A stretch of 64,000 nucleotides of DNA, taken from assembly GCF_902809845.1 (NCBI RefSeq), contig NZ_CADDWI010000009.1, forward strand, positions 434,001-498,000, read 5' to 3'. Under the pieces are notes generated by a model. That model saw only the letters and a program-made list of their open reading frames with translations. It searched no databases and was not told the origin of the DNA. Positions 24,373-40,680 of the stretch are shown here, piece by piece. The position numbers and the translations under genes are program-made. Position 1 is the first letter of the stretch. Every line of letters starts with the position of its first letter. The stretch is from Chelativorans sp. Marseille-P2723. Lineage in GTDB: Bacteria > Pseudomonadota > Alphaproteobacteria > Rhizobiales > Rhizobiaceae.

Positions 24373-24438
24373 CGCTTTTTCAGGCGGCAATGCGCAACTG
24401 CTGCAACTACTTTGAATGTAACGAGGCGGCTCGTTGGA

Positions 24439-24642
24439 CTACTTGAACGCGCAGCCTGTCTTCACCCCAAGCTTTCGGAAGACCATGGCCGCAGGGCAGA
24501 AGCCTGTGAGAGATGCCTGCATGAGATTCAGGCCGACAAAGGCATTCAGCAGATACCACCAGGGCGACACGTAGAAGCCGAGCGCCAGGGAAAGAAGAAC
24601 CATGAACCCCGCGAACATCATCACCGCACGATCGAGCGTCAT
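24439..24642 (-). CDS. DUF2892 (YgaP-like membrane domain) protein
   Basis: A 67-residue protein with two membrane helices (residues about 8-25 and 27-47) and the C-terminal FCPAAMVFRKLG motif with the conserved CP, followed by another cysteine. This is the membrane domain of YgaP-type rhodanese proteins found alone in sulfide and persulfide response operons. The start at 24642 (MTLDRAV) is chosen for the family start and AAAGGA upstream. It leads the minus-strand operon with the RND adaptor 66 bases downstream; an FNR/FixK box and the ArsR gene lie on the other side. Confidence 0.85.
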   Translation of the reverse strand: MTLDRAVMMFAGFMVLLSLALGFYVSPWWYLLNAFVGLNLMQASLTGFCPAAMVFRKLGVKTGCAFK

Positions 24643-24698
24643 TTGAGTAATCCTTTTGTTATCGAACCCACTTGTGCGACCCTGGAAGCCATCCCGCA

Positions 24699-24712
24699 TT
24701 GATCCGGCTCAA
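24699..24712. promoter_or_regulatory. FNR/FixK box between DUF2892 and ArsR
   Basis: TTGATCCGGCTCAA matches TTGA-N6-TCAA. It lies 57 bases before the DUF2892 start and 89 bases before arsR, so it could connect the pump operon to oxygen control. Confidence 0.6.
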
Positions 24713-24771
24713 ACCCGCCGGCCAGCAGTGGTCCTGCGGTCCGCACAGCAGGCAAAATCGTGGCTTGCATA

Positions 24772-24810
24772 TAACATTCAAAGAACTTAAATTCAAGAAC
24801 ATGAATGTTA
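24772..24810. promoter_or_regulatory. Candidate operator of the ArsR regulator
   Basis: TAACATTCA (24772-24780) and its exact inverse TGAATGTTA (24802-24810) flank a 21-base centre. Within it are direct repeats ATTCAAAGAAC and ATTCAAGAAC. The element overlaps the ArsR start codon, as expected for a site used for autorepression and for shutting the divergent pump promoter. Confidence 0.5.
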
Positions 24811-25145
24811 TGGATATGATTCCCGCTTCCGAATCCGCCGCCGAGCTGATGCGCAGCCTGTCTCATCCCCAACGACTGCTGGTGCTTTGCGCGCTGGTGG
24901 ATGGCGAGAAGTCGGTTGCTGAATTGCGTCAGGAACTAGGGATCGAGCAGGTGCCGATGTCGCAGCAACTGATGCGCCTGAGGGCGGACGGGCTCGTCGA
25001 GGCCCGCCGTGAGGGAACGGCGGTCTTCTACAGCATTACCCAGCCACAGGTCCTGACGGTGATCGAAGCGCTCCACACCGCCTATTGCAGAAAGCAACCC
25101 TCAGCCCCCCGACCCGGCCAAAGGGGAAACGAGGCGGCGGACTGA
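24801..25145 (+). CDS. ArsR-family regulator, persulfide-sensor type (paralogue 1)
   Basis: A 114-residue winged helix protein. The start at 24801 is taken because residues before it are not ArsR-like. The recognition region is VPMSQQLMRLRADGLVEARREG. Cysteines at residues 30 (LLVLCALV) and 96 (HTAYCRK) are 66 residues apart, the same spacing as the dithiol of BigR/SqrR persulfide sensors. It is divergent from DUF2892 and the RND pump operon. Inference: it represses that operon until reactive sulfur forms a cysteine link. There are no metal-site motifs of SmtB/ArsR type. Confidence 0.85.
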   Translation: MNVMDMIPASESAAELMRSLSHPQRLLVLCALVDGEKSVAELRQELGIEQVPMSQQLMRLRADGLVEARREGTAVFYSITQPQVLTVIEALHTAYCRKQPSAPRPGQRGNEAAD

Positions 25146-25192
25146 CGGCCAGACCAGGCTAGTTCGCCCGACATCCAGGTCGGGCCGTCCTG

Positions 25193-25336
25193 TCATTCGC
25201 CAGCCTTCCCTGCTCTTCCGGAGACTGTAACCGCCTGCTTCTTTGCCGCATCATCCATCAGTTCGTACCACATAGCGTTGAGGACGGCGACGGCCGCGGC
25301 AAGGGGCAGGCCAAGCAACCATGCAAAATACCACAT
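25193..25336 (-). CDS. cydX: CydX, cytochrome bd oxidase small subunit
   Basis: A 47-residue single-helix protein (MWYFAWLLGLPLAAAVAVLNAMWYEL) of the CydX/YbgT type, starting at 25336. It starts 17 bases after the cydB stop. CydX stabilises the haem centre of the bd oxidase. The C-terminal tail is hydrophilic and longer than in E. coli. Confidence 0.85.
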   Translation of the reverse strand: MWYFAWLLGLPLAAAVAVLNAMWYELMDDAAKKQAVTVSGRAGKAGE

Positions 25337-25352
25337 TGCGAATTTCCCTTGT

Positions 25353-26510
25353 TCAATAGGCGTGGCCTGAGCCGTCAGTGATCGACTTCTCGTCCACCTT
25401 GCCCCACAGCACGCGATAGACCCAGGCGGTGTAGGCGACCACGATCGGCACGAAAACCACGCTGACGACCAGCATGATGAAGAGCGTCATATGGCTCGAC
25501 GAAGCGTCCCAGACGGTCAGGCTGGCCTGCGGCTGGATCGATGACGGCAGGATGAAAGGAAACATCGACAGCCCGACCGTCGAGATGATGCCGAGGATGG
25601 AGACGGACGAGGCAAGGATCGCCGCAACCTCGCGCCTCGCGCGCATAAAAGCATAGGCGCCCGCCGCCCCGGCAAAACCCATCGCCGGGCCGGGCACCAT
25701 CCATGGATGGGTGGCATAGTTCTCGAACCAGATACCTGGCGCCCGCTCCACCGTCTTGGCGAGGGGGTTGGAGGGGCCGGTCGTGACGACCTCGCTGGTG
25801 ATACGATAGCCGTCGATGCCGAGCCAGAGCCACAGCCCGCCGATCGCGAACAGGGCGATGGTCACGAGCGCGGCAATGCTTCCGTAGGCACGCGAGCGGT
25901 CGGCGACCGGGCCTTCCGTCTTCAGAACAAGCCAGGCCGCCCCGTGCATGACCAGCATGGCGACGGACAGGAGGCCAGCCAGCAACCCGAACGGGTTCAG
26001 AAGTTCAAACAATGTCGTGCCCTCATAGAAGATGCGCAGATCGCTTTCGAACCGAAACGGAACTCCTTGCAGGACGTTGCCGACGGCTACACCCATGACG
26101 AGCGCCGGCACGCCGCCGCCGATGAAGAGAGCCCAGTCCCAGGCTGTACGCCATGCCGCGCTCTCGCGCTCGGATCGGTATTTGAAGCCGACAGGGCGCA
26201 GGATGAGGGCGAACAGGATGGCGAACATCGCGAGGTAGAAGCCGGAGAAGGAGACGGCGTAGAGCGGCGGCCAGGCGGCGAAGATCGCACCGCCGCCGAG
26301 GACCAGCCACACCTGATTGCCTTCCCAAACCGGGCCGACGGAATTGATGACGACACGGCGCTCGACATCCGTTCTGGCCACGAAAGGCAACAGGAATCCC
26401 GTGCCCAGATCGAAGCCGTCCATCACGGCAAAGCCGATGAGCAGCACACCGAGCAGCAGCCACCAGGCGACGCGGAGAATTTCGTAATCGATATATTGAT
26501 GCAGGATCAT
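25353..26510 (-). CDS. cydB: Cytochrome bd ubiquinol oxidase subunit II
   Basis: A 385-residue membrane protein with about nine helices. It starts MILHQYIDYEILRVAWWLLLG (start 26510, GTAGAACT upstream), followed by GFAVMDGFDLG, the CydB signature, and GPVWEGNQVWLV. It pairs with CydA to form the high-affinity, cyanide-resistant quinol oxidase. It follows cydA by four bases. Confidence 0.95.
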   Translation of the reverse strand: MILHQYIDYEILRVAWWLLLGVLLIGFAVMDGFDLGTGFLLPFVARTDVERRVVINSVGPVWEGNQVWLVLGGGAIFAAWPPLYAVSFSGFYLAMFAILFALILRPVGFKYRSERESAAWRTAWDWALFIGGGVPALVMGVAVGNVLQGVPFRFESDLRIFYEGTTLFELLNPFGLLAGLLSVAMLVMHGAAWLVLKTEGPVADRSRAYGSIAALVTIALFAIGGLWLWLGIDGYRITSEVVTTGPSNPLAKTVERAPGIWFENYATHPWMVPGPAMGFAGAAGAYAFMRARREVAAILASSVSILGIISTVGLSMFPFILPSSIQPQASLTVWDASSSHMTLFIMLVVSVVFVPIVVAYTAWVYRVLWGKVDEKSITDGSGHAY

Positions 26511-26514
26511 AGTT

Positions 26515-28092
26515 CTACTCCGCAGCAGCGAACGAGGTCGGAACAAGTTTGGCCTCGGGCTCGTCATCGGGCTCCGGTCCGTGGCGGATCGCCCTGATCA
26601 TCAAAGCCATCTCGATGATGAACAGCACCGTGTAAATCAGCACGAAGCCGGCGATGGTGGCGAGCACCGTCGCGGCCCCCAGATTGGAGACCGCTGCGGC
26701 GGTCGGCAGCACGCCCTCGATGATCCAGGGCTGGCGACCGAATTCCGCGACGATCCAGCCCAGTTCGGCCGCGATCCATGGCAGGGGTATCGAGAAGACG
26801 GCGACGCGCAGGAGGAAAGGATAGCGGTCGAGCCGGCGGCGCGCCGAGAGGTAGAAGAACACGGCCATCAGGGCAATGAAGAAAAAGCCCAGACCGACCA
26901 TGATGCGAAACGACCAGAACAGCGTTGGAACGTGGGGAACCGTGTCCAGCGCCGCCTGATGGATCTGGTCTTCAGTCGCCTGACGCGGATCGTCGACATA
27001 ACGCTTGAGAAGAAGGGCATATCCGAGGTCGCGGCCATTGTTCTCGAAGGCCGTGCGCACTTCCGGTGCAACATTGGCCCCGCCATTCGTCTCCCGGATC
27101 TGCTGGAGTGCGTCGAAAGCCGTGACGCCCCGACGAATGCGTGTCTCGGCATGCTCCACCAGTTCGTCTATGCCGGGGATTTCGGCGGTCAGCGAGCGCG
27201 TGCCGATCAGGCCCATCACCCATGGAATCCTGACCGCATAATGGGTTTCGCGAGCCTCCTGGTCGGGAAGCCCGAACAGGGTGAAGGCGGCGGGCGCAGG
27301 TTCGGTCTCCCACATGCCCTCCATGGCCGCCAGCTTCATCTTCTGGTGCTCGGTCGACAGATAGCCGCTCTCGTCGCCGAGAACGACGACCGACAGCGCC
27401 GCGGCAAGGCCGAACGAGGCCGCAACCGTCATCGAGCGCTTGGCCAATTCGGAATGCCGTTCCTTGAGCACATACCAGGCCGAGACGCCGAGGACGAAAA
27501 CCGCGGCGGTGACGTAGCCGGCGGAAATCGTGTGCACGAACTTCGCCTGCGCCACCGGATTGAAAAGCACCGCATAGAAGTCGTTCACTTCCATGCGCAT
27601 GGTCTGCGGATTGAAGACGGAACCGACCGGGTTCTGCATCCAGCCATTGGCAATGAGAATCCATAGCGCCGAAAGATTCGAGCCGAGAGCCACGGCCCAG
27701 GTGGCGGCGAGGTGACCGACCCTGGACAGTTTATCCCATCCGAAAAAGAAGAGGCCGACGAAGGTCGCTTCGAGGAAGAAGGCCATCAGCCCTTCGATCG
27801 CCAGCGGAGCGCCGAAGATGTCGCCGACATAATGGCTATAATAGCTCCAGTTCATGCCGAACTGGAATTCCATGACAAGGCCGGTGGCGACGCCGAGCAC
27901 AAAGTTGATGCCGAACAGCGTGCCCCAGAACTTAGTCATCTGGCGCCAGATCGGTCGCCCCGTCATGACGTAGACTGTCTCCATGATCGCCAGCAGCACA
28001 GAAAGGCCGAGCGTCAGGGGCACGAAGAGGAAATGGTAAAGCGCGGTGATGGCGAATTGCAGCCGCGAAAGATCTACAATGTCCAGGTCCAT
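26515..28092 (-). CDS. cydA: Cytochrome bd ubiquinol oxidase subunit I
   Basis: A 525-residue membrane protein containing the haem b558, b595 and d sites. Visible signatures are LSRLQFAITALYHFLFVPLTLGL (residues 8-30, with the first haem histidine), a long quinol-binding Q loop in the middle, and FGRQPWIIEGVLPT near 440. Length fits. It reduces oxygen to water with electrons from quinol, without pumping protons. It lies directly after cydC, so it probably shares the gbsR-cydDC promoter. Assembly of its haems normally needs CydDC, whose genes are damaged here. Confidence 0.96.
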   Translation of the reverse strand: MDLDIVDLSRLQFAITALYHFLFVPLTLGLSVLLAIMETVYVMTGRPIWRQMTKFWGTLFGINFVLGVATGLVMEFQFGMNWSYYSHYVGDIFGAPLAIEGLMAFFLEATFVGLFFFGWDKLSRVGHLAATWAVALGSNLSALWILIANGWMQNPVGSVFNPQTMRMEVNDFYAVLFNPVAQAKFVHTISAGYVTAAVFVLGVSAWYVLKERHSELAKRSMTVAASFGLAAALSVVVLGDESGYLSTEHQKMKLAAMEGMWETEPAPAAFTLFGLPDQEARETHYAVRIPWVMGLIGTRSLTAEIPGIDELVEHAETRIRRGVTAFDALQQIRETNGGANVAPEVRTAFENNGRDLGYALLLKRYVDDPRQATEDQIHQAALDTVPHVPTLFWSFRIMVGLGFFFIALMAVFFYLSARRRLDRYPFLLRVAVFSIPLPWIAAELGWIVAEFGRQPWIIEGVLPTAAAVSNLGAATVLATIAGFVLIYTVLFIIEMALMIRAIRHGPEPDDEPEAKLVPTSFAAAE

Positions 28093-28159
28093 TAAGTATT
28101 CTCCATTCGCCCATCATCGCAAGGTGTTGCCGGCAGTCTTTGATATCGGTCAATCGCCA

Positions 28160-29867
28160 TCAGTCCGGTCGCAAGTCTTCGAGCAGGGAGGCAAATTCCG
28201 GCCCGCCGCGCCGGACGATGGTAGTGATCGATCCCTTGTCCATGATGACAATGCTGTCGGCGAGTTCGGCCTCCCGCCGGATATGCGTGGCCAACACTAT
28301 CGAACGCCCTTCGGCCCGTGCTGCAAGACGGATCAGGACGTCACGCGCCGTCGGCCCGTCGAGCCCCTCGGTCGGCTCGTCGAGCAGCCATAGCGGCGCG
28401 TCGCGCAGGAACAGGCGAGCGAGCGCCAGCGCGCAGGAACAGGCGAGCGAGCGCCAGCCGACGCGCCTGCCCGCCCGAAAGACCAAACCCCCCTTCGCCG
28501 AGCCGCGTATCGAGCTTCTCCGGGAGAGCTTCGACATCCTCTCTGAGGCCTGCGGCCTCGAGTGCGGCAAGCAGTCGGGAATCGTCGGCCTTCGGATCGG
28601 CGAGGCGAAGGTTGTCGCGCAGGCAGTCCTGAAACAGTTCGGTCCTCTGTGTCAGCAGCGTTGCCACCCGTCGTTCGACCATACCGTGTTCGGCCGCTAT
28701 TTCCCCGGCAATGAGGGCGAGCAACGTCGACTTGCCGGCGCCGCTCGGTCCCACGAGCGCGACTCGCTGGCCGTCACGGATCATAAGCGAGACATCGCGC
28801 AGCGTCGGCGCGGAAGCGCCCGCATGCCTGACCGTTGCATGCGCCAGACAGACGGAAAGGCCGGCAGGAGGACCGAGGGCGGCCGATTCGGGAGGAAGAA
28901 CCTCCAGACGCGGCGCGATCCGACGCGCCGCAAGCAGTGTGCGCCCCAGCTCAAGGGCGCCTCTGCGCAGTGGCGTGAAAGGTTCCAGGGCCGCGAACGC
29001 CACGAGAATGCCGAGCGCGGCGACTGGCGCGTCGATGGAACCTGTCTCGGCAAGCAGCGTCATGGCGACGACGGTGGCCGACAACAGTAGCGTCCCGACA
29101 ATACCGAAAGCGATGCCCGTCTTGGTTTCTATGCGATTGAGCGCGTCGTCGCTCTCTGCAAGATAGCGGTCCACCGTGGCGGCATCTTGCTGCCGGGCAG
29201 CAAGTTGTCCTGCCATGATCAATTCCGTATGACCGGCGACGAGGTCGATGATGTGTGAGCGCAGGATTTCAAGGCCATGCGCCCGTCGCTCCGCCGGCCT
29301 TTTCGCGGCAATGGCCGCAACGGTGGGAATTCCAGCCCCCGCCAGCACGAGCAAAAAGACAATCGCGGTTCCGAACAGCGGCTCGATCAGCCCCAGCACG
29401 GTACCGCTTGCCAGCGCCACGACAAGCGCGCCAAAAAGCGGCACCAACACACGCAGGTAGAGCGAATCCAGCGCGTCGATGTCGAGCGTCAGCCGGAACA
29501 GCAAGCGGGCCGGCCGCTTGATGAGGCCGGCGGCCATGTCGGGCCGGGCCCAACCCCGGAACAGCCCCTCGCGCAGTTCGGCAAGTACGCCGAGGGTTGC
29601 ATCGTGCGTCGTCAATCGCTCGCCATAGCGGGCGGCGGTGCGGACAAGCGCGAGGAAGCGGATACCTGCTGCCGGGGCGAATACGTCGAAGGCAAGCGCA
29701 GTCGTGACCGACAGGCCGGCGATCGCCGTGGCTGTGATGAACCAGCCGGAAAGGCCGAGAAGCGCTACTCCGGCCAGAGCCGTGGCGGCTGAAAGAAGCG
29801 CACCGGCAACCGGCATGAAACGATTGCCGGAGAGGAAAAGCACGAGGATCGGTCGCAGGCTGGTCAT
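28160..29867 (-). pseudogene. cydC: cydC, ABC exporter subunit, frameshifted by a 28-bp tandem duplication
   Basis: CydC pairs with CydD to export cysteine and glutathione needed for cytochrome bd assembly. The N-terminal membrane domain (six helices, about 15-310) and the P-loop (GPSGAGKSTLL, about 370), then LSGGQARRLALARLF (about 470), are present from start 29867. The frame is lost in an exact two-copy repeat at 28403-28458 and regained in another frame as DAPLWLLDEPTEGLDG (Walker B) to the stop at 28160. Removing one copy restores a continuous, usual-length protein of about 560 residues. The frame shift removes Walker B and the H-loop, so the damaged form would be inactive. Confidence 0.9.
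28403..28458. repeat. Tandem duplication, 2 x 28 bp, in cydC
   Basis: Two adjacent identical 28-base copies (28403-28430 and 28431-28458, unit starting GCGCAGGAACAGG). Because 28 is not a multiple of three, the extra copy shifts the cydC frame. Confidence 0.97.
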
Positions 29868-31683
29868 GCCGCGCGCTCCAGTCGCCCCGGTGTCACGCGC
29901 ACGATCCGATCCATGCGTGCCGCCAGCACAGGATCATGCGTAGCGACGATCAGAGTGCGGCCGTCCGCCAGCGCCAGAAGAGCGTCGGCGATCTGCCGGG
30001 CGGTTACCACATCGAGATGCGCGGTGGGTTCGTCGGCGAGGATCAGCCCGGTTTCGGGGGCTGCGACAATGCGCGCGAGCGCAAGCCGCGAGGCCTCGCC
30101 TCCCGACAAGCCAACACCGCCCTCGCCGACCGGCGCCGCCCCTCTCCTGGCGCACCGCCCTCGCCGACCGGCGCCGCCCCTCTCCTGGCGGCCACCGCGC
30201 CGAGGCCCACCAGATCCAGGGCCTTTCGGACCACCTTCCTGCTTATGCCGGGTCGCCCCAGCGTGACATTGCCTGCAAGTGTCGCGGGGAAAATGTGCGG
30301 ACGTTGTCCGATGAACGCCATGCGTCGGCGCAGCGCTGCAGCTGTACGCTGCGACATGACCTCTCCTCCGATCAGGATGCGGCCGCTTTCGGGCAGCGCA
30401 AAGCCGGAAAGCAGCGCGAGCAGCGTCGATTTTCCGGATCCGCTGGAACCGAGCAGCGCCACATGCTCGCCGGGGACGACGTCGAGATCGAAGCCGTCGA
30501 AGACAGGCTCGGTATTGGAAGCGTGGCGAAAGCGAAGCTTTTCGATGCGAACACCTGGCGGCGAAGATGGAGCCGGCCCGAATGGCAAATCCTCATCTTG
30601 GGCCCCGGGAAGTAGCGTGCCTTGCTGTGCAAGATCGCGAACCGCCTGCATGGCCGCCTCGCCCGCGGCCCGGTCGTGCCAGACGGTGGAAAGGTCACGC
30701 AACGGTTCGAAGAAGGCGGGCGCGAGCAGCAGAATGAACAAACCTTCTTTGAGGGAAAGCGTCGTCTCCCAGGCGCCAAAGGGGAGTTGTCCCAGAAGGT
30801 GGAAACCGACGTAGACGGCGACCATGGCGACGCCCAGCGCGGAGCACAACTCAAGCACCGCGGACGACAGGAAGGCGATCCGCAGCACCGCCATGGTGCG
30901 CAGCCGGAGATTTTCCGCATCGAGCCTTAGCCTGCGGGCGGTCATGTCGACGGCTCCGAGCGAGCGGATCGTGGCAAGACCACGCAGCCGGTCGAGCAGG
31001 AAGGCGTTCATGCTCCCCAGTTCGACGAGTTGCGCCTTGCTCGCGGCCTTGGCGCGCCAGCCGATGAGCGCCATGAAGATCGGGATCAGGGGTGCAGCGA
31101 TGAGGAGCACCAGGGCGGCGGCCCAGGACCAGACGAAGACGCAAGCGAAGATCAGCAGCGGCATGATCGTCGCACGCAGTCGCGCCGGCTGGAAACGGGC
31201 AACGTGTGGTACGATCGCCTCCGCCTGCTCGGCCAGCGTGCTCGCTGCGAGGCCGGAGGCAGGACGGGCGGGGTCGATCGGCGAACGGTCCGCGAGAGCG
31301 GCCAGGGCATCGCGGCGAAGATCGGACAGGCTATGACGCGCCTGACGAAAGGCTATGCGAGCGCCGGCGGCATCGAGAACCGACCTCAGCACTCCGAGGA
31401 CAAACACGCCTGTCGCATACCACCAGACCGAAGCGGCGGCGTCTCCGGCGCCGATGTTCCCCACTGCCGATGCGAGCAGCCAAGCTTGCGGAATCCAGAT
31501 CGTGGACGCAAAGATTTGAAGAGCCGATCCAGTCCGGGCTTTTGCATTCGATGCCGGTCGCATGGTCGCATGGCACTGATCGGTATCAGCGCCTCCCTCG
31601 CCGCGAGATGCATCGCAAGGACCGATGACCGCGGCTTCCGCTCGCCTATCTTCCGGCGCGCTGATGGAACCGGCTTTGGTCAC
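29864..31683 (-). pseudogene. cydD: cydD, ABC exporter subunit, frameshifted by a 38-bp tandem duplication
   Basis: The start at 31683 overlaps the stop of the gbsR gene by four bases. The membrane domain (six helices, about 55-330), P-loop (GSSGSGKSTLL, about 415) and Q-loop are intact. Before the ABC signature the frame is shifted by a repeat at 30116-30190; the remainder is read in another frame as SGGEASRLALARI, ILADEPTAHLD and the C-terminus ending at 29864. Deleting one repeat unit restores a normal protein of about 560 residues. As written, the signature and Walker B are lost. The last four bases overlap the cydC start. Confidence 0.9.
30116..30190. repeat. Tandem duplication, period 38 bp, in cydD
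   Basis: Copies at 30116-30152 and 30154-30190 are identical over 37 bases with a period of 38 (unit starting ACCGCCCTCGCCG). The extra unit is not a multiple of three and shifts the cydD frame. Confidence 0.96.
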
Positions 31684-32258
31684 ACTCGCCCCTTCCCGTC
31701 TTTTGTTTTCCGACGACCCACGGAGACGATCTTGTCGCTGGCATCGAGCAACCTGGAGATGCGGGAACCCAACCCAAGCAAGGTCGCGAGCCGCTGGGTG
31801 TCGAGCTGCTTGACATCATCATACCAGGTCGTCAGTTGCTCGATCAGGCCGTGCATCTCGGTCATGCGTCGCTGCGCGAAGCGTTCGCTCTCGCCCTGCG
31901 GATCCTGCATCAGAATTTCGCGCAGCACCGAAAGCGTAGGATCGATTTCGCGCTTTTTTCTTTCCTCGATCAGCGTGCGCAGGATTTGCCAGACATCATC
32001 CGGCGCGGAGAAGAACTCACGACGATCGCCCGGCTTGTGGCTTAGCAGAACAAGGCGCCACGCTTGCAATTCGCGCAAGCTCATCGAGACATTCGAGCGT
32101 GAAATGCCGAGTGCCTCGACAATCTCGTCGGCACATAGCGGCTTCGGTGAGACATAGAGAAGGGCGTAGATCTGGCCGACCGTGCGGTTGATACCCCAGC
32201 GACTCCCCATCTCTCCGAAATGAAGAACAAAAGCCTGAATGAGTGGCGGAAGGTTCAC
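31680..32258 (-). CDS. GbsR/MarR-family transcriptional regulator of the cyd operon
   Basis: A 192-residue winged helix protein of the GbsR type: FGEMGSRWGINRTVGQIYALLYVSPKPLCADEIVEALGISRSNVSMSLRELQAW (residues 14-67) and a helical C-terminal dimerisation part. It leads the gbsR-cydDC-cydABX gene run with a four-base overlap into cydD. A perfect 16-base palindrome just upstream (32276-32291) is its likely operator, so it is probably autoregulated together with the bd oxidase genes. Signal unknown. Confidence 0.85.
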   Translation of the reverse strand: MNLPPLIQAFVLHFGEMGSRWGINRTVGQIYALLYVSPKPLCADEIVEALGISRSNVSMSLRELQAWRLVLLSHKPGDRREFFSAPDDVWQILRTLIEERKKREIDPTLSVLREILMQDPQGESERFAQRRMTEMHGLIEQLTTWYDDVKQLDTQRLATLLGLGSRISRLLDASDKIVSVGRRKTKDGKGRV

Positions 32259-32275
32259 GGCGGACTTTCACGGAG

Positions 32276-32291
32276 TTCAGAAATTTCTGAA
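32276..32291. promoter_or_regulatory. Perfect palindrome upstream of the GbsR/MarR gene
   Basis: TTCAGAAATTTCTGAA is its own reverse complement; the palindrome ends 18 bases before the gene's start codon, beside an AT-rich stretch (32298-32305, TATATATA) that may be a -10 region. MarR/GbsR operators are usually of this form. Confidence 0.6.
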
Positions 32292-34287: not shown

Positions 34288-34308
34288 CTTCGTATCACCT
34301 TCCGCTGA

Positions 34309-34752
34309 TCAGGCCGCGTCCGACTGCGTCCGCACTGCCATCGCGTGTCGCGCCAGGCGCGCCGCAGCGATGCCGCCCAACATCGAGCCGACAAAGAGCA
34401 GCGCGTCGGCTTCGCCCAGGCCGAGAGCCGGGATGGCACCTCCTGGACAGAAGCCGGTGATGCCCCAACCGACGCCGAACACCGCCGAACCCGCGATGAG
34501 CGCGGGGTCGATATTGCGGGCGCTCGGAAGATGAAAGGTTCGATCGAACAGGGGCTGCGGACGTCTGAGCACGAAATGATAGCCGATGGCGGTCACGATG
34601 AGCGCACCACCCATCACGAACGCGAGCGAGGGGTCCCACACGCCTGCCACATCGAAGAAACTGAGCACCTTGGCCGGGTTGGCCATACCGGAAATCGCAA
34701 TTCCTGCGCCGAAGACGAGACCTGCGAAAAGGGCGGAGAGGGTCCGGATCAT
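34309..34752 (-). CDS. YeeE/YedE-type sulfur transport membrane protein (short form 2)
   Basis: A 147-residue membrane protein with about four helices: residues 2-22, 35-55, 85-105 and 112-135. It contains GVGWGITGFCPGGAIP, the cysteine motif of YeeE/YedE (TsuA) family thiosulfate transporters. It is the second half of a split pair with the gene at 34752-35183. Its start overlaps the previous stop by one base (TGATG), so the two are translationally coupled. Such pairs occur in BigR-controlled operons. Substrate (thiosulfate or a related sulfur species) is inferred. Confidence 0.9.
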   Translation of the reverse strand: MIRTLSALFAGLVFGAGIAISGMANPAKVLSFFDVAGVWDPSLAFVMGGALIVTAIGYHFVLRRPQPLFDRTFHLPSARNIDPALIAGSAVFGVGWGITGFCPGGAIPALGLGEADALLFVGSMLGGIAAARLARHAMAVRTQSDAA

Positions 34753-35183
34753 CAGAAGCCTCCAAGAAGGTGACGAACGATGAAGACGGTCAATGCCGTC
34801 GATGCCATGAATGTGAGCGTCGCGGCGATGGAACGTGGCGACACCCGGGCGAGCCCGCAGACGCCGTGTCCGGACGTGCAGCCGGAGCCGAAATAGACGC
34901 CAATGCCGACGATCAGCCCGCCGATGACGAGCCATGGCGCTGGTACCGCGCTCTCAAAAGGAATGACCGGCTCACCGGCAATGGCAATGATCAGGGCTGG
35001 TGCGGCGATCGCTCCGGCAATGAAGGCCGCCCGCCAGGTCCAGTCGTCCGAGAATGGCGGCAGAAGCCCAGACAGGATGCCGGTCATCCCGGCGATGCGG
35101 CCATGGAAGGCCATCAGCAGGACGGCGGCAACGCCGATCAGCGCGCCTCCAAAAAGGGAGGCAACCGGTGTGAATTCAGTCAT
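34752..35183 (-). CDS. YeeE/YedE-type sulfur transport membrane protein (short form 1)
   Basis: A 143-residue membrane protein with four helices and the motif [15 protein letters not shown] (about residues 98-112), the first-half cysteine signature of YeeE/YedE sulfur transporters. It partners with the next gene, which carries the second signature. It starts three bases after the regulator gene upstream. In the family the cysteines pass a sulfur compound across the membrane. Confidence 0.9.
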
Positions 35184-35186
35184 CGA

Positions 35187-35528
35187 TCAGTCTCGTCGTT
35201 GCGGGTTTGCGGCATCGCTCGTGCAGAACAGCCGGTGCATGGTGTGAATGAATGCTGCCACGCGCGGGTCCGCGAGGTGGTAAAAGACATGCTTGCCCTC
35301 CTTGCGACCCGCAATCAGCCCTGCCTCGCGCAACTCTGCGATCTGCTGCGACAGGCCCGGCTGGCGGATGCCGAGCAGATCCTCGAGGTCCCGAACGGAG
35401 CGCTCGGCCTCAAGGAGTGCGCAGCAGACCAGCAGTCGATCGGGATTGGACAGCTTCTTCAGAAAGCCCGATGCCTCCTCGACATTGGCCTTCAGGTCGG
35501 CTGCTTCGCAGGAAAGCGGCTCAATCAC
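35187..35528 (-). CDS. bigR: ArsR-family persulfide sensor, BigR-like (paralogue 2)
   Basis: A 113-residue winged helix regulator. The recognition helix region reads RQPGLSQQIAELREAGLIAGRKEG. Cysteines at residues 36 (LLVCCALL) and 102 (HRLFCTS) are 66 residues apart, exactly the spacing of the BigR/SqrR dithiol that forms a polysulfide bridge. It lies inside the operon it probably regulates, between the persulfide dioxygenase and YeeE genes, the arrangement known for BigR operons in Agrobacterium and Xylella. The symbol bigR is given because context and cysteines both fit. Confidence 0.88.
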   Translation of the reverse strand: MIEPLSCEAADLKANVEEASGFLKKLSNPDRLLVCCALLEAERSVRDLEDLLGIRQPGLSQQIAELREAGLIAGRKEGKHVFYHLADPRVAAFIHTMHRLFCTSDAANPQRRD

Positions 35529-35531
35529 GTG

Positions 35532-36413
35532 TCAATCCCATGGCGCGCCGCTCAGCACGTCGAGCGGGATCTTAAGGTAACGGCGTCCGTTTGATTCGGG
35601 TACGGGCAGCCGTCCGCCATTGGTGTTGATCTGCAGCGAGTGCAAGATCAGCTTAGGCATGGCAAGCGTCCTGTCGCGGGCCTCGCGGGCGGCGACAAAC
35701 TCCGCTTCCGTCCTGTATTTCGCCATATGGATGTTCTTTGCCTTCTGCTCGCTGACCGTCGATTCCCACAGCGGTTCGCGACCGCCGGGCTGGTAGTCGT
35801 GGCCGGTAAAGATGCGGGTCTCGTCCGGCAGGGCGAGGATGTCCTGGATGGACTTCCACAGCACCTTGGCGCTGCCGCCCGGGAAATCGGCGCGCGCCGT
35901 GCCGCTGTCGGGCATGAACAGCGTGTCGTGTACGAACGCGGCATCACCGATGACATAGGTGATCGAAGCGAGCGTATGACCCGGCGAGAACATCACTCTC
36001 GCGTCGATATTGCCGATCGTGAAGGTGTCGCCGTCAGCAAAGAGGCGATCCCACTGGGAGCCGTCGGCGGGAAAATCCGGCCAGTTGTAGAAGTCCTTCC
36101 AAAGCTTCTGGACCTCAGTCACCTTCTCGCCGATCGCTGTGGGCGCTCCGGTCTTTTCCTTGAGGTAGGCGGCGGCCGAGAAGTGGTCGGCATGGGGATG
36201 GGTGTCGAGGATCCACTCGACCGTGTAGCCCCTCTCCTTCACGAATTCGAGGATGCGGTCGGCGCTCTTCGATGCGGTCTGGCCGGATTTCTCATCGAAG
36301 TCATAGACGGGGTCGATGATCGCGCATTTCTTCGTCTCGGGATCAGCGACCACATATTGGATCGACCAGGTCCGCCGGTCGAAGAAGCCGGTCACTTCGG
36401 GTTTCTGTGCCAT
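35532..36413 (-). CDS. blh: Metallo-beta-lactamase-fold persulfide dioxygenase (Blh/ETHE1 type)
   Basis: A 293-residue MBL-fold enzyme. It starts FFDRRTWSIQYVVADPETKKCAIIDPVYDF. Iron-binding motifs are DTHPHADHFSAA (about residues 73-84), the HTL of SPGHT (about 146) and the FTGHDYQPGG motif (about 200). Persulfide dioxygenases oxidise glutathione persulfide to sulfite with oxygen. It lies between the DUF442 gene and bigR, as in known BigR operons. The start at 36413 gives the usual length. Confidence 0.93.
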   Translation of the reverse strand: MAQKPEVTGFFDRRTWSIQYVVADPETKKCAIIDPVYDFDEKSGQTASKSADRILEFVKERGYTVEWILDTHPHADHFSAAAYLKEKTGAPTAIGEKVTEVQKLWKDFYNWPDFPADGSQWDRLFADGDTFTIGNIDARVMFSPGHTLASITYVIGDAAFVHDTLFMPDSGTARADFPGGSAKVLWKSIQDILALPDETRIFTGHDYQPGGREPLWESTVSEQKAKNIHMAKYRTEAEFVAAREARDRTLAMPKLILHSLQINTNGGRLPVPESNGRRYLKIPLDVLSGAPWD

Positions 36414-36452
36414 GGGAATTCTCTTTCTGCGTGCTGCTCTTGGATGAAGGTG

Positions 36453-36880
36453 CTAGCGGCCATGTGTGGCGAGCCAGGCCACGCCTCCGGACAGATCGAA
36501 ACCATGCCTGGCTCCGAACTGCATGAGGTCGGTCTTGGCCATCCGGCCGTCGAGGACCCTCCGATTGCCCAGAGCGTCAACGATCGTGTGCCGGAGCGGC
36601 AAAAGGCAACAACGGGTCCGGCGCTTTCGGCAAGCGTCTTCTGAAAATCGCGCACGAGCTGTTCGGTGATATCGGGCCCTCGCACCGGCAGATGGGCCGA
36701 ACGCAGTCCGGCCTTCTCGGCGGCGTCGGCGATTGCGCTGGCGGTCGGCTGCAGAAAGCCCTCCCCGTCCGGCCGGTTGTTGACGATTGTCGCATACCCG
36801 GCTTGCGCAAGACCGCTGATGTCCTGCGGACTGATCTGGCCGCAAACGGCAAGCCGTTCGTCGATCTGGACCGGCTTCAT
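36453..36880 (-). pseudogene. DUF442 (Blh N-domain-like sulfurtransferase), frameshifted
   Basis: The frame starting at 36880 gives VQIDERLAVCGQISPQDISGLAQAGYATIVNNRPDGEG, a TIGR01244-type protein with the phosphatase-like loop FCRSGTRS (about residue 93) that carries the catalytic cysteine of this persulfide/rhodanese-like family. After LWAIG the frame changes at about 36555-36563; the expected ending (RMAKTDLMQFGARHGFDLSGGVAWLATHG) is read in another frame to the stop at 36453. One missing base explains it. The catalytic loop precedes the shift. Truncation removes the C-terminal helix; activity is doubtful. Sequencing error is possible. Confidence 0.82.
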
Positions 36881-37083
36881 TTGCCACCTCTCTTAAGTGG
36901 ACAGGTGTTCAGGCCAAAGATCGAATAGAGCGGGCAGGTTGAGAACAGGCCCGTGAAAAGCGGCACGAGGCCGACCAGTCCCCACCAGCGTGCGTTGCTC
37001 TCGAGGACCAACAGGAGCGACAGAAGCCCCAGGCCGATGATGATTCTCAGGGTGCGATCGACGCCACCGACATTCTTCGTCAT
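36877..37083 (-). CDS. DUF2892 (YgaP-like membrane domain) protein
   Basis: A 68-residue protein with two helices (about 12-28 and 32-48) and the motif STCPLYSIFGLNTCPLKR with two cysteine-proline pairs. It is the first gene of the minus-strand sulfur operon and overlaps DUF442 by four bases. It resembles the second DUF2892 protein at 24439-24642. The membrane domain of YgaP takes part in sulfur handling; exact role unknown. A perfect inverted repeat lies 57 bases upstream. Confidence 0.88.
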   Translation of the reverse strand: MTKNVGGVDRTLRIIIGLGLLSLLLVLESNARWWGLVGLVPLFTGLFSTCPLYSIFGLNTCPLKRGGK

Positions 37084-37139
37084 GTCCGTTCCTCGTCATT
37101 GTTTCCGGTTCAATTCCGGCTTCTTCCTTACGTACATAC

Positions 37140-37159
37140 GATTGCAAATAAATGCAATC
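37140..37159. promoter_or_regulatory. Candidate BigR operator of the sulfur operon
   Basis: GATTGCA and TGCAATC are perfect inverse 7-base arms around AATAAA, in an AT-rich stretch 57 bases upstream of the DUF2892 start. BigR-type sites are AT-rich inverted repeats, so this is the best operator candidate for the operon 37083-32482. Confidence 0.55.
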
Positions 37160-37221
37160 AATAAAATGTTTCGAACCTACAGTTCTCTCCGGAATTCTTT
37201 CTTGCGTGGTGTGCGCCGTCG

Positions 37222-38427
37222 TCAGGTCGTGCCGGGTGCCTCCTGCTTTCTCCTGCTCATGCGCCACAGAAGCGGGACCAGAACGAGGGCAATCGTCGGA
37301 AATATCAGCCAGTTGATGGTCTGCCAGCCGGCCGCCGTCAGCAGCGTTCCGGAAAAGAACGAAGCTGCGGCGACGGAGCCGAAGATGAGGAAGTCGTTCG
37401 CGCCTTGCACTTTGCCGCGTTCATCTGACGTGTGGCAGTCGGTTACCATTGCGGTTGCGCCGATGAACCCGAAGTTCCAGCCAACGCCGAGCAGGATCAG
37501 CGAGATATAAAAATCGGAAAGGTTTAGCCCGGAAAGTGCGACGGCCCCGGAGCCCGCGATAAGAAGCAGTCCGGCGGCGGTCACCTTCTCCTTGCCGAAG
37601 CGACCAATGAGATGGCCGGTGATGAAGCTTGGCGCAAACATGGCGAGCACATGCCACTGGATGCCGAGCGCGGCCTCCCCGACGGTAAACCCGCAGCCGA
37701 CCATAGCGATGGGGGCCGCAGTCATGACGAAGCTCATTAGCCCATAGGAGACGATGCCGGCCGCTGCTACGAGCATGAAACGAGGCGCAAGCAGGATCTC
37801 GCGAAGGGGTCGGCCGCTGCTCATCGACAGGCGGGCCTGCGCCACTTTCGGAGCGCGCAGCATTGCCAACACGGGAAGCGCCAGAAGCGCCAACACCGCC
37901 TGGCTCAGGAAGCTGCCCGCGAAAGGCGCTGCTGGCAGCGCGTCGCGCGTCCAGATCACCAACTGCGGTCCGATGATGGCTGCGATCAGCCCGCCGATCA
38001 TTACCAGAGAGATCGCCCGTGCCTTGAAGCTGTCGGGGGCTGCATCGGTCGCGGCGAAACGATAGCTTTGAACGTATGCGCCGTAGAAACCGGCGAGAAA
38101 GGTGCCAAGGCAGAAGACGACGAATGCTGCTGCGACCACTCCGAGTGTCGCGACGAGGCCGGAGATGATGCCGATCCCCGCACCGAGCAAATATCCTGTG
38201 CGACGACCGAAATGACGCATCACGACCGCGGCGGGGATCGTTCCGAGCGCAAGGCCGAGATTGTAGAGGCTGACCGGCAAGGTCACGAAGGCGGGATCCG
38301 GCGACAGGACCTGATCGACGATGCCGCCGAGCGAAATGATGATCGGCGGGCTGGCGGCCCCGAGCGCTTGGGCTGCCGTCAAGATGAATACGTTCCTACG
38401 GGCAAGTGCCTCAGCCGGCATAAACAA
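37222..38427 (-). CDS. Major facilitator superfamily transporter
   Basis: A membrane protein of about 400 residues with twelve predicted helices and MFS motif A-like sequence after TM2 (MRHFGRRTGYLLGAG, about 92-106). It starts at 38427 or 38421 (both start in frame). It follows the third ArsR gene by seven bases, so it is probably its operon partner. Its substrate is unknown; among YfcJ-like or drug and sulfite exporters no clear choice can be made from the sequence. Confidence 0.88.
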   Translation of the reverse strand: MFMPAEALARRNVFILTAAQALGAASPPIIISLGGIVDQVLSPDPAFVTLPVSLYNLGLALGTIPAAVVMRHFGRRTGYLLGAGIGIISGLVATLGVVAAAFVVFCLGTFLAGFYGAYVQSYRFAATDAAPDSFKARAISLVMIGGLIAAIIGPQLVIWTRDALPAAPFAGSFLSQAVLALLALPVLAMLRAPKVAQARLSMSSGRPLREILLAPRFMLVAAAGIVSYGLMSFVMTAAPIAMVGCGFTVGEAALGIQWHVLAMFAPSFITGHLIGRFGKEKVTAAGLLLIAGSGAVALSGLNLSDFYISLILLGVGWNFGFIGATAMVTDCHTSDERGKVQGANDFLIFGSVAAASFFSGTLLTAAGWQTINWLIFPTIALVLVPLLWRMSRRKQEAPGTT

Positions 38428-38434
38428 TCCCCAG

Positions 38435-38803
38435 TCAGTTCTGGGGCGCTTTGCGGCGCCCGATGGCAGGGCCCTCCGAGGCTGCAGCTGCCTTGGCCAC
38501 CCGTGGTTCGCAGAAAGACTCGTACAAAATGGTCAGCACGTTGCGCGCGGGCTCGCTCTGGATCCGGTACCAGATCATCTGGCCGTCTCGCCGACCGGCG
38601 ATCAGCCGGTCGCGGCGCAAGAGCGCTAGATGCTGGGAGACGGTCGAATCCCGGATCCCGAGATACTCCGCAAGCTGTCCAACCGACTTCTCGCCATCGA
38701 TGAGCTGGCACAGGATCAGGAGACGATGCCGGTTGGCAAGCGCCTTCAGCAATTCGCTGGCATCGTCGGCGGCGGCTTCCATGATTTGAAGATCGATTTT
38801 CAT
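38435..38803 (-). CDS. ArsR-family regulator, persulfide-sensor type (paralogue 3)
   Basis: A 122-residue winged helix protein; the start at 38803 fits the family. The recognition segment is RDSTVSQHLALLRRDRLIAGRRDG. Cysteines at residues 32 (LLILCQLI) and 98 (YESFCEP) are again 66 residues apart, as in BigR/SqrR. It is divergent from the trx-sqr operon with 93 bases between; a TTGA/TCAA inverted repeat with an AT-rich centre (38824-38839) in this gap is a likely operator. SqrR-type regulators control sulfide:quinone reductase genes, which fits the neighbour. Confidence 0.87.
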   Translation of the reverse strand: MKIDLQIMEAAADDASELLKALANRHRLLILCQLIDGEKSVGQLAEYLGIRDSTVSQHLALLRRDRLIAGRRDGQMIWYRIQSEPARNVLTILYESFCEPRVAKAAAASEGPAIGRRKAPQN

Positions 38804-38823
38804 TATTGCGAACCTACGCAGAT

Positions 38824-38839
38824 TTGAATATATAGTCAA
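38824..38839. promoter_or_regulatory. Candidate operator between ArsR and trxC
   Basis: TTGAATATATAGTCAA: inverse TTGA and TCAA arms with eight AT-rich bases between. The spacing (eight, not six) argues against an FNR/FixK box, while position between divergent genes fits an ArsR/SqrR operator or overlaps a -10 region. Confidence 0.4.
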
Positions 38840-38896
38840 TGAGAAATCGCCCTGCCGACGGCACTGCCCCGGCAAGGCGCGCTGGAGATCGGATGT

Positions 38897-39346
38897 ATGA
38901 CGAACGGTGACCGTAACGTTGTCTGCCCGCATTGCGCGGCAGTGAACCGGATTGCTACCGGGCGGGACGCCACGGCGGCCCGCTGCGGATCGTGCAAGGA
39001 GAAGCTGTTCGACGGACATCCCGTCGATGCGAATGCCCGCATGTATGATCGCCAGATCGCGCGCAGCGACATCCCGGTTCTTGTCGATGTCTGGGCGCCC
39101 TGGTGCGGGCCCTGCCGGGCGATGGCGCCGGCCTTCGCCCAGGCCAGCACCGAACTCGAGCCCGATGTCAGGCTGATCAAGCTCAATTCCGATAACGAAC
39201 CGGAGGTCGCCGGACGGCTCGGCATTCGCGGGATCCCGACCATGATCCTGTTCCGCGGAGGCAGGGAGCTTGCCCGCACCTCCGGAGCCATGACCGCCAG
39301 GCAGATTTTTGACTGGACGCAAAGACATTTGGGCCCGGCAGCCTAG
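38897..39346 (+). CDS. trxC: Thioredoxin 2-type protein with zinc ribbon
   Basis: A 149-residue thioredoxin 2 homologue. The N-terminal zinc ribbon has CPHC (residues 10-13) and CGSC (about 30-33), and the active site is WAPWCGPCR (about 68-76) in a full thioredoxin fold ending GGRELARTSGAM. Such proteins reduce disulfides and persulfides; the position directly before sulfide:quinone reductase and divergent from a persulfide-type ArsR suggests a sulfur-stress job. Start at 38897 is the only one fitting the zinc ribbon. Confidence 0.93.
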   Translation: MTNGDRNVVCPHCAAVNRIATGRDATAARCGSCKEKLFDGHPVDANARMYDRQIARSDIPVLVDVWAPWCGPCRAMAPAFAQASTELEPDVRLIKLNSDNEPEVAGRLGIRGIPTMILFRGGRELARTSGAMTARQIFDWTQRHLGPAA

Positions 39347-39384
39347 AACAAAGCTGATTTTGCCGTTCGGCGAGGAGGTGAGAG

Positions 39385-40680
39385 ATGAACAGACGAGAAC
39401 TACTCCTTGGCGTCAGTGCGGCCGGTGCGCTTTCCGCATTGGGCGCGTTTCCAGCCCGTGCTCAGATTTCGTCGGCGCGTGCCCGCATTGTCATCGCGGG
39501 AGCCGGTGCCGCCGGCCTGTCGCTGGCCTCCAGATTGTCGCGGCAGATGGAGAATGCAAGCATCACCATCATCGACGCCAAGCACGAGCATCATTTCCAG
39601 CCAGGCTACACCTTAATCGGCGCCGGTCTCTGGCAACCGACGGACGTGACCTTCCGGAACGCCGATTTCATCCCCCCGGGCATCGAGTGGATCGAGGAGG
39701 GTGTGGCGGAGTTCGATCCTGACGCCAATCGGGTCGCGACCACTTCGGGTCGTAGCGTGAATTACGACTTCCTCTTCGTGGCAACGGGTTTGATGCTGGA
39801 TTATCGCGGCATCCAGGGTATGGACGAGTCGCTCATCGGAACGGACGGGATCGCTTCGATCTATGCCGGACCCGAGGCAGCCGCAGCCTCGTTCATGGAG
39901 ATCGAAACTTTCATCGACAAGGGCGGCGTCGGCCTGTTCGGCCGGCCTCCGACGGAAATGAAATGCGCCGGCGCGCCGCTGAAGATCACCTTCATCACCG
40001 ACGACAGGGCGCGCCGCAGAGGCCGGCGCGACAATGTGGAGCTGATCTACAACGCACATGCTGGCGCGGTGTTCGCAATTCCGCCGGTCAACGACAAGGT
40101 CAAGGAGATGTTTGCCGCCCGCGACGTCGCGGTGAACTATAATCATGTGCTGTCGGCAATCGACCCCGATGCGAAGAAAGCCACCTACCGGACCGAAGGC
40201 GGCGACGTCACGCTCGACTATGATTTCATTCACGTCGTACCGCCCATGCGCGCTCCTGAGGCCGTCAGGAACAGTCCCCTGCCCTGGCAGGACGGTGCGC
40301 TCGCCGCGGATGGCTGGATCGAGGCAGACAAGGCGACGCTCCGCCACCCGCGTTTTGCCAATGTCTTTGCAGTCGGCGACGTGGCCGGTGTGCCCCGCGG
40401 CAAGACAGCAGCGAGCGTCAAATGGCAGGTCCCTGTTGTCGTGGACAATCTCGTTGCCGAGACGGCCGGACGCGATCCGACCGCGACCTATAACGGCTAC
40501 ACCTCCTGCCCGATGGTGACCGCCTACGGCAAGGCGATGCTGATCGAGTTCGACTATGACGGCACTCTGATCCCCTCCTTCCCGTTCATCGACCCGCTCG
40601 AGGAACGCTGGATCTCCTGGGTGATCGAGGAAAAGGGGCTCAAGGGAGCCTACCGCGCCATGCTGCGCGGACGTGCGTGA
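39385..40680 (+). CDS. sqr: Sulfide:quinone oxidoreductase-type flavoprotein
   Basis: A 431-residue FAD enzyme. It starts with a Tat-like or lipoprotein-like leader (RRELLLGVSAAGALSALGAFPARA), then the dinucleotide fold IVIAGAGAAGLSLASRLSR (residues 35-53). Catalytic cysteines of SQR are found in EMKCAGAPLK (about 192) and YTSCPMVTAYGK (about 374). The FAD motif VFAVGDVAGVP lies near 330. It oxidises sulfide to polysulfide and passes electrons to quinone. A leader at the N-terminus is uncommon for SQR and hints at periplasmic placement. The gene is flanked by trxC and a membrane protein gene on the same strand. Confidence 0.9.
   Translation: MNRRELLLGVSAAGALSALGAFPARAQISSARARIVIAGAGAAGLSLASRLSRQMENASITIIDAKHEHHFQPGYTLIGAGLWQPTDVTFRNADFIPPGIEWIEEGVAEFDPDANRVATTSGRSVNYDFLFVATGLMLDYRGIQGMDESLIGTDGIASIYAGPEAAAASFMEIETFIDKGGVGLFGRPPTEMKCAGAPLKITFITDDRARRRGRRDNVELIYNAHAGAVFAIPPVNDKVKEMFAARDVAVNYNHVLSAIDPDAKKATYRTEGGDVTLDYDFIHVVPPMRAPEAVRNSPLPWQDGALAADGWIEADKATLRHPRFANVFAVGDVAGVPRGKTAASVKWQVPVVVDNLVAETAGRDPTATYNGYTSCPMVTAYGKAMLIEFDYDGTLIPSFPFIDPLEERWISWVIEEKGLKGAYRAMLRGRA

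Follow-up and report, generated by a model that had tools for sequence, protein, structure and literature searches.

A probable reactive-sulfur defence island with three two-cysteine ArsR regulators and a conserved RND pump unit in Chelativorans sp. Marseille-P2723

In the usual picture of sulfide detoxification, sulfide is oxidised by sulfide:quinone oxidoreductase (SQR) and persulfide dioxygenase, and TauE-type carriers take sulfite or thiosulfate out of the cell. Among the known regulators, SqrR of Rhodobacter capsulatus controls sqr. The site deduced for SqrR reads ATTC-N8-GAAT (PMC9774250; this and all other papers given by PMC number are cited from excerpts). The two-cysteine repressor BigR of Xylella, Agrobacterium and Acinetobacter lies beside genes for a persulfide dioxygenase and a DUF442 protein (PMC5823870, PMC7315123). 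In Acinetobacter baumannii, where the BigR locus contains YeeE/YedE genes, BigR governs yeeE-yedE-pdo2 (PMC7315123). Several related ArsR proteins that respond to sulfane sulfur can occur in one organism, as in Hyphomicrobium denitrificans, in which sHdrR and SoxR bind a shared region (PMC12423496, PMC10451225). Moreover, according to section 2.1 of one of these papers, RND pump genes, like sqr, sox, pdo and PmpAB/YeeE genes, are found next to two-cysteine ArsR proteins of this kind (PMC12423496, 2025). Here, we describe a stretch of 64,000 nucleotides (the window; positions 434001-498000 of contig C9, NZ_CADDWI010000009.1) from the 3.77 Mb genome of Chelativorans sp. Marseille-P2723. The window likely contains a reactive-sulfur defence island whose three two-cysteine ArsR switches (ArsR1, ArsR2 and ArsR3) act in parallel and in which a resistance-nodulation-division (RND) pump and a DUF2892 protein are part of a conserved module.

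From left to right, the first operon comprises the genes for a DUF302 protein, an RND permease, a periplasmic adaptor (MFP) and a DUF2892 protein, all on the minus strand, and arsR1 is divergent on the plus strand. Farther right follow the genes for a SulP transporter, two YeeE-type proteins, ArsR2, a persulfide dioxygenase (SDO), a DUF442 protein and a second DUF2892 protein. At the right end of the island, the genes for an MFS transporter and ArsR3 lie on the minus strand, and those for a thioredoxin-2-like protein and an SQR are divergent from arsR3 on the plus strand. Profile matches thus bear out the genes that a preliminary description, made from the sequence alone, had placed around each ArsR. 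The features are as follows:

19679-20065, minus strand: DUF302 protein, downstream of RND (Pfam PF03625, E=4e-24)
20081-23356, minus strand: RND permease of 1091 amino acids with HAE1-type VDDAIVV motif, cysteine-free (PF00873, E=1e-140)
23353-24390, minus strand: periplasmic adaptor (MFP/HlyD family), cysteine-free (PF13437)
24439-24642, minus strand: DUF2892a, YgaP-like transmembrane protein (PF11127; mechanical start of the open reading frame (ORF) 24699, likely start 24642)
24765-24793, plus strand: arsR1 promoter, read by eye (-35 TTGCAT 24765-24770, 17 bp, -10 TAAATT 24788-24793, 7 nt to ATG)
24791-24806, plus strand: predicted ArsR1 operator ATTC-N8-GAAT, from the -10 element to the start codon (additional half-site ATTC 24776-24779)
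24801-25145, plus strand: ArsR1, two-cysteine (C30/C96) repressor of the SqrR/BigR group
32482-34287, minus strand: SulP transporter (PF00916 and STAS)
34309-35183, minus strand: two YeeE-type proteins (DUF6691, Sulf_transp; PF20398, PF04143)
35187-35528, minus strand: ArsR2, two-cysteine (C36/C102; additional C35)
35532-36413, minus strand: persulfide dioxygenase (NF040641 positions 139-423, E=1e-176, 588 bits)
36392-36880, minus strand: DUF442 sulfur transferase, frameshifted near 36560 (TIGR01244, E=5e-31; three-frame translation)
36877-37083, minus strand: DUF2892b, second DUF2892 protein (orthologues in loci L179, L195 and L196)
37136-37163: predicted ArsR2 operator, palindromic around a TTGC-N8-GCAA core (37142-37157; matrix match)
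37222-38427, minus strand: MFS transporter, downstream of ArsR3 (PF07690)
38435-38803, minus strand: ArsR3, two-cysteine (C32/C98)
38801-38839, minus strand: arsR3 promoter and predicted operator (TTGACT, 17 bp, TAGGTT, 7 nt, ATG)
38809-38818: CGTA-N2-TACG-type core of the arsR3 operator, imperfect in the window
38897-39346, plus strand: thioredoxin-2-like protein with zinc ribbon (PF00085, PF21352)
39385-40680, plus strand: sulfide:quinone oxidoreductase, similar to mitochondrial SQOR (PDB 6mp5, E=6e-74)

The three arsR reading frames and their cysteine pairs (30/96, 36/102 and 32/98) are as the preliminary description had given them; ArsR2 has an extra Cys35. It had also proposed an alignment with BigR and SqrR, in which the cysteines of all three proteins indeed match those of the structures column for column: BigR 3pqj for ArsR1 and ArsR2, HlyU 4k2e for ArsR1 and ArsR3, and SqrR 6o8k for all three. 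ArsR2 and ArsR3 were assigned to the SqrR/BigR group from sequence, ArsR1 from sequence and a predicted structure (mean pLDDT 83.5). The best Foldseek matches of this model are SqrR (38-41% identity), BigR and then HlyU. Both cysteine columns are kept in 52 of the 55 homologous ArsR sequences of the tree set, and both residues are present in 83/83 ArsR1 matches of at least 60% identity (74 distinct sequences; the 83 include two entries for the window), with a spacing of 66 residues in 79 and 67 in four. The identical 66-residue spacing, to which attention had been drawn, is thus real and above chance; because the homologous proteins share it, it has to be counted as a family signature rather than as a separate coincidence. 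The alignment and conservation of the cysteines, together with a SqrR-type operator at arsR1, support membership in the persulfide-type ArsR family. Judged by sequence, the window regulators are new members of the known SqrR/BigR/HlyU group.

The ArsR superfamily is best known for its metal sensors, and the metalloregulator model NF033788 gives the window ArsRs 75-84 bits, which is over its cut-off. It is nevertheless very improbable that the three proteins respond to a metal or a general oxidant, with the sulfur genes as accidental neighbours, since SqrR, BigR, HlyU and YgaV rank before the metal sensors SmtB and CzrA among the nearest structures and sequences (for ArsR1, by model and fold search), and the two cysteines are kept alongside sulfur-gene neighbours across many loci. 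Each ArsR falls into a clade of its own (FastTree local support 0.991 for ArsR1, 0.992 for ArsR2 and 0.905 for ArsR3), which rules out a recent duplication of the three. ArsR2 is nearest to BigR (support 0.815) and, like it, lies beside persulfide dioxygenase, DUF442 and YeeE-type genes. Unlike BigR, ArsR1 and ArsR3 guard other operons, and the cut-off of 155 bits of the BigR equivalog NF040642 is not reached; BigR equivalogy of the window ArsRs was therefore ruled out. Moreover, no TauE match was present among the scanned island proteins, unlike in BigR systems.

Each ArsR would most likely act on its own operator. The 75 distinct sequences upstream of arsR1 share a block of 52 bases, in which 34 positions carry at least 1.4 bits and the layout is TTGCAT, 17 bases, TAAATT, 7 bases and ATG. 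ATTC-N8-GAAT is exact in 69 of these blocks, and TTTC replaces ATTC in the other six. Among the three regulators, only ArsR1 has this SqrR-type site; the ArsR2 and ArsR3 sites differ from it. Codon 2 of ArsR1 is AAT in 83/83 sequences, and where codon 3 encodes valine, GTA or GTT is used in 78 of 80 cases, compared with 102 of 685 valine codons in the rest of the genes. Therefore, the DNA, and not the protein alone, is under constraint at the start of arsR1. From the placement of the promoter, and because no ribosome site is visible by eye, we infer that the arsR1 message is leaderless, beginning with the ATG itself. Both arsR1 (24765-24806) and arsR3 (38801-38839) look leaderless, with the predicted operator overlapping the start region. 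On the opposite strand, TTGAAT-N17-TANATG, read by eye, might place the RND promoter under the ArsR1 site. E. coli YgaVP resembles the ArsR1 unit in that an ArsR is combined with a YgaP-type membrane partner and an ATTC-N8-GAAT-like site; to our knowledge, the YgaVP operon contains neither an RND pump nor an SQR gene.

Of seven orthologous ArsR2-type loci, five have a palindrome with TTGC-N8-GCAA at its centre (GTAA in one of them) ahead of the operon, some matches in these five sitting away from the operon start; TTGC-N8-G[CT]AA was absent from L194 and L200, the other two of the seven loci searched. A position weight matrix (PWM) was built from the five orthologue sites, own sites excluded, and all PWM scans covered 115 kb of the genome. 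The site in the window (37136-37163) scored 34.5 bits and the SDO promoter of a fourth two-cysteine paralogue 31.0 bits. The remainder consisted of a shifted overlap at the latter promoter (21.5 bits) and other places of at most 7.8 bits. This paralogue (Cys35/101; C9:192378, locus L199) lies beside a second SDO gene and a SulP gene. Genome-wide, TTGCA-N6-TGCAA occurs at seven places, and its spacer is all A/T only at the two ArsR2-type SDO promoters; the reversed control of this pattern had zero occurrences genome-wide. ArsR2 and the fourth paralogue thus probably share targets, as far as the sites can tell.

The ArsR1 matrix gave 83 bits at its own site, 2 bits on the reverse strand of that site and negative values elsewhere. 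For ArsR3, a search for X4-N8-X4 dyads failed, and the site is visible by alignment only. The ArsR3 matrix was derived from eight loci (L181-L186, L189 and L193), leaving out L179, which has one additional base in its block, as well as L187, L188 and L190-L192, which showed no alignment by eye. At the arsR3 promoter of the window, it scored 45 bits, compared with at most 12 elsewhere; on 16 further ArsR-RND loci, it reached at least 30 bits at six (L190, L211-L214 and L217) and 1.5-22 bits at ten. Three different operators in three clades therefore point to parallel, insulated switches rather than layers. A layered response had been suggested in the preliminary description. Layering in the sense that one ArsR governs several of the three operons would agree with the operator type common to ArsR2 and the fourth paralogue at two SDO operons. 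Such a hierarchy was not borne out and is unlikely, since the operators of ArsR1, ArsR2 and ArsR3 differ and each matrix finds only its own operon or operons within the 115 kb. In this respect, the window also differs from the sHdrR/SoxR pair of H. denitrificans, which it resembles in having several related ArsRs, because its operators are distinct (PMC12423496, PMC10451225). These distinct operators would provide a testable case of how chemical sensors that are close relatives are kept insulated within a single cell.

The conservation of an RND-DUF2892-DUF302-ArsR unit, for which a check across genomes had been proposed, was followed with one genome per species in the best 80 of 88 relatives, picked by ArsR1 similarity, so that the linkage seen in these loci partly reflects common descent. 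Seventy of the loci (L039-L108) are close orthologues with at least 65% identity. A divergent DUF2892-MFP-RND unit is present in 66 of the 70, or in 66 of 67 when the upstream flank is at least 1.5 kb; in three of the four loci without it, the contig ends within 1 kb on the divergent side. The RND-DUF2892-ArsR combination is thus kept. DUF302 occurs in 6/70 loci as a minor companion and was ruled out as a core part of the unit. In 44 of the 66 ArsR1-linked operons, the strand of the RND gene encodes an extra protein of 376-488 amino acids in the interval from ArsR1 to DUF2892. All 44 copies are about 73% or more identical to that of locus L056, and three cysteines are invariant. The L056 protein matches an entry named sulfide-quinone reductase (E=1e-137), presumably that of Acidithiobacillus ferrooxidans, and we take the three cysteines to correspond to the catalytic ones of that enzyme. 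Therefore, a type I SQR is often the first gene of the operon, a position that would mirror the control of sqr by SqrR. Unlike SqrR, to which it is not a sister in the tree, ArsR1 has operons that carry DUF2892-MFP-RND and an mRNA that seems leaderless. In loci L105 and L107, a dioxygenase gene lies downstream of arsR1.

The conserved unit, the SQR in many of its operons and the SqrR-type operator support the earlier proposal that the RND-DUF2892 operon belongs to a reactive-sulfur module. To judge from these comparisons, reactive-sulfur defence really includes the RND unit, which is conserved widely but has been described little. The further statement that RND pumps are not known in BigR regulons stands only in part: RND genes beside two-cysteine ArsRs are in print, in the excerpted text as a remark on gene neighbourhood only (PMC12423496). 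In searches of open-licence papers, judged mostly from their listings, none was found on the function of the pump, an SQR-DUF2892-MFP-RND operon, SqrR together with RND efflux, or polysulfide export together with SQR.

The RND unit is also found outside the ArsR1 loci. Among the 13 best other genomes, chosen by ArsR3 similarity alone, ArsR3 orthologues occur with MFP-RND in nine and with type I SQR in five loci; L193 (genome G023), added to the set for its known RND, is left out of the nine. A search with the permease in 385 genomes of the class, in which two candidates were scored per genome, so that orthologues may be missed, gave 30 matches at E<=1e-200, including that of the window. The other 29 loci were examined, 28 of which have at least 60% and one 45% identity (the genome of L208 is apparently that of L088 in the ArsR1 set). 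Within flanks of up to about 8 kb, the 28 orthologues are accompanied by a two-cysteine ArsR in 15 cases, by an ArsR with the second cysteine displaced by about one helical turn in three, by DUF2892 in 21 and by SQR in nine. Any ArsR of this type lies within 1.5 kb in 12/28 and within 3 kb in 18/28, compared with 0/29 paralogous RNDs at a reach of about 1.5 kb; these controls were 30 loci from seven genomes minus the RND of the window, with flanks of about 1.5 kb. In a sample of 398 genomes of the phylum, the identity drops from 57% to 46% with no value in between, and the matches of at least 57% all come from the same class, among the matches listed. In L228, L229 and L230, RND-linked ArsRs with a cysteine spacing of 62-63 lie beside type I SQR and RND and could be a variant sensor. 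De novo clustering of neighbouring ORFs yielded mostly shadow ORFs and was set aside.

Furthermore, the RND is found on plasmids (43 records), of which three were read: pPAN2, R. leguminosarum p2 and Shinella pShin-07. Plasmid pPAN2 of P. pantotrophus, which comes from an effluent plant with denitrification and sulfide oxidation, combines cyd, dioxygenase, YgaP-like, YeeE-type, DUF6691 and sulfur transferase genes and an ArsR3-type regulator (Cys36/102) with cytochrome c, DUF2892, MFP, RND and an SQR that is 49% identical to the SQR of the window. R. leguminosarum p2 carries ArsR (Cys31/97), DUF2892, MFP and RND.

The pump itself has an ACR_tran domain and a DD pair in the proton-relay region and thus belongs to the HAE1-type RNDs, sharing the fold family with AcrB, MexB and MexK. 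Unlike these pumps, window-type permeases mostly lack cysteine and have Arg in place of Lys before an N[ASG]I motif. The permease and the adaptor of the window both have zero cysteines. Among RND ORFs of at least 950 amino acids, the permease is cysteine-free in 63/64 ArsR1-linked and 20/27 class-wide orthologues, compared with 2/29 paralogues (mean of 1.9 in the paralogues). In a regular-expression test, Arg precedes N[ASG]I, the position of which is presumably TM10, in the readable orthologues (64 ArsR1-linked, 28 class-wide and 20 distant), and Lys does so in 11/11 readable controls, a further 18 controls being unreadable. Both traits may go back to one ancestor and would then not have arisen independently. 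If the cargo reacts with thiols, a permease that avoids them would be suitable.

It has to be considered that the pump is an ordinary exporter for drugs or envelope stress that was captured by reactive-sulfur regulators and is co-induced without carrying sulfur species. The HAE1-type Pfam assignment, PDB relatives such as MdtB and MexK, and published drug-efflux regulators that sense sulfane sulfur (PMC8614764, PMC11211675) agree with this. However, the SQR embedded in 44/66 orthologous operons, the joining of the RND to at least two ArsR lineages and the near absence of cysteine from the permease suggest a sulfur task, which makes capture of a drug exporter somewhat doubtful. Alternatively, the pump could clear toxic compounds that arise under sulfide stress, for example complexes of metals with thiols, or copper or zinc in free form. 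The adaptor has a HlyD_D23/CusB-like match, and copper is perturbed by sulfide in A. baumannii (excerpt of PMC7315123), but removal of such by-products is improbable given the HAE1 DD pair, the absence of cysteine from permease and adaptor, and the CusA/CzcA metal model TIGR00914, which gives 233 bits compared with 397 bits for RND_permease_2. The former score is under the cut-off of 701 and under those of HAE1-type models, the latter under the cut-off of 1250; all 15 listed models remain under their cut-offs. A metal RND pump was disfavoured on the TIGR00914 score and the DD pair.

More specifically, and with some reserve, it may be proposed that RND-MFP-DUF2892 is a dedicated sulfane-sulfur exporter for polysulfide or persulfide made by SQR, which has its own two-cysteine ArsR switch with an operator reaching the leaderless start codon and serves as an export arm across Alphaproteobacteria and, more distantly, in other classes. 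By analogy with the SqrR/BigR/HlyU group, persulfides or polysulfides would bridge the two cysteines and thereby take the repressor off the DNA. ArsR1 would act on ATTC-N8-GAAT over the divergent arsR1 and DUF2892-MFP-RND promoters, ArsR2 (and, probably, the fourth paralogue as well) on TTGC-N8-GCAA upstream of the persulfide dioxygenase operons, and ArsR3 on the CGTA-N2-TACG-type site over arsR3-MFS and thioredoxin-sqr. If the proteins have the roles of their known families, SQR would convert sulfide to sulfane sulfur, which dioxygenase, sulfur transferase and thioredoxin would remove, YeeE and SulP proteins would transport sulfur anions, and cytochrome bd would sustain respiration while sulfide blocks other oxidases. 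The favoured cargo, expelled from the periplasm or inner membrane, would be either sulfane sulfur that SQR has produced, as polysulfide or low-molecular persulfide, or else a small adduct of a thiol. With an RND pump that accompanies SQR and two-cysteine sensors in many families, the handling of reactive sulfur would gain a route of export, and a role in sulfur export would explain an RND group beyond the reach of current named models.

Several observations weigh against the reading of the island and its pump given here. The RND operon of the window lacks an embedded SQR, the SQR of the window instead adjoining ArsR3, and a type I SQR was not found in this genome. ArsR1 is patchy, with a match of at least 70% in 7/15 other genomes of the same genus, and locus L107 has ArsR1 but no DUF2892-MFP-RND within its 8 kb flank. 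RND is missing from 4/13 ArsR3 loci, one of which (L188) is a contig of 6 kb. Ten of the 28 class-wide loci show no such ArsR; four of them (L209, L224, L225 and L235) are near a contig end and the other six have wider flanks. Among 20 distant RNDs (42-46% identity), hand-picked from a longer list of other branches, an ArsR occurs at seven (with the cysteine pair in five), DUF2892 at 11 and type I SQR at two. Shinella pShin-07 has MFP and RND but neither ArsR nor DUF2892 in its listed annotation, which is incomplete. With NF040642, the window ArsRs score 90, 91 and 84 bits and the fourth paralogue 103. Finally, the absence of cysteine from the permease may be drift within one clade, and the adaptor offers no contrast: it is cysteine-free in 57/65 ArsR1-linked, 27/28 class-wide and 10/11 control loci, and this absence was ruled out as a special trait.

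The genes next after arsR1, which lie between the RND and SDO operons (25353-32258) and are absent from the preliminary description, encode CydB, CydA, CydC, CydD and a MarR/GbsR-type regulator:

25353-26567 (cydB) and 26515-28092 (cydA), minus strand: cytochrome bd oxidase (PF02322, PF01654)
28341-31683, minus strand: cydC/cydD-type ABC exporter genes (PF00005, PF00664; synteny with cydAB)
31680-32258, minus strand: MarR/GbsR-type regulator, perhaps of the cyd operon (PF12802; NF047500 sub-threshold)

Cytochrome bd is described as induced by and resistant to sulfide (excerpt of PMC7315123). Two further genomes (L179/L180 and L196) have cyd genes adjoining the dioxygenase operon, and cydA/cydB of more than 55% identity lie near ArsR1 in 4/70 loci (L054, L082, L099 and L101). 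The palindrome CAGAAATTTCTG is located near 32279, at the MarR/GbsR-type regulator of the cyd region. The ArsR2 operon combines a two-cysteine ArsR with DUF442 and SDO, as in BigR-type dioxygenase operons. DUF442 and SDO are separate ORFs, and the 588 bits of the SDO with NF040641 are under the cut-off of 625, which is set for a two-domain protein. After about 36560, the conserved C-terminal part of the DUF442 protein continues in another frame; the gene is therefore a pseudogene or contains a sequencing error.

On the left of the island, 17954-19600 encodes an APH kinase-like and AAA/zeta-toxin-like protein and adjoins a universal stress protein gene. The region to the right contains apparently decayed genes, namely a P-type ATPase fragment (41031-41762) and a phosphoketolase (XFP) split across two overlapping ORFs (43680-46056). 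Between them, the ORF at 41752-43680 encodes an acetate kinase that runs directly into the integrase domain of an IS3-type transposase.

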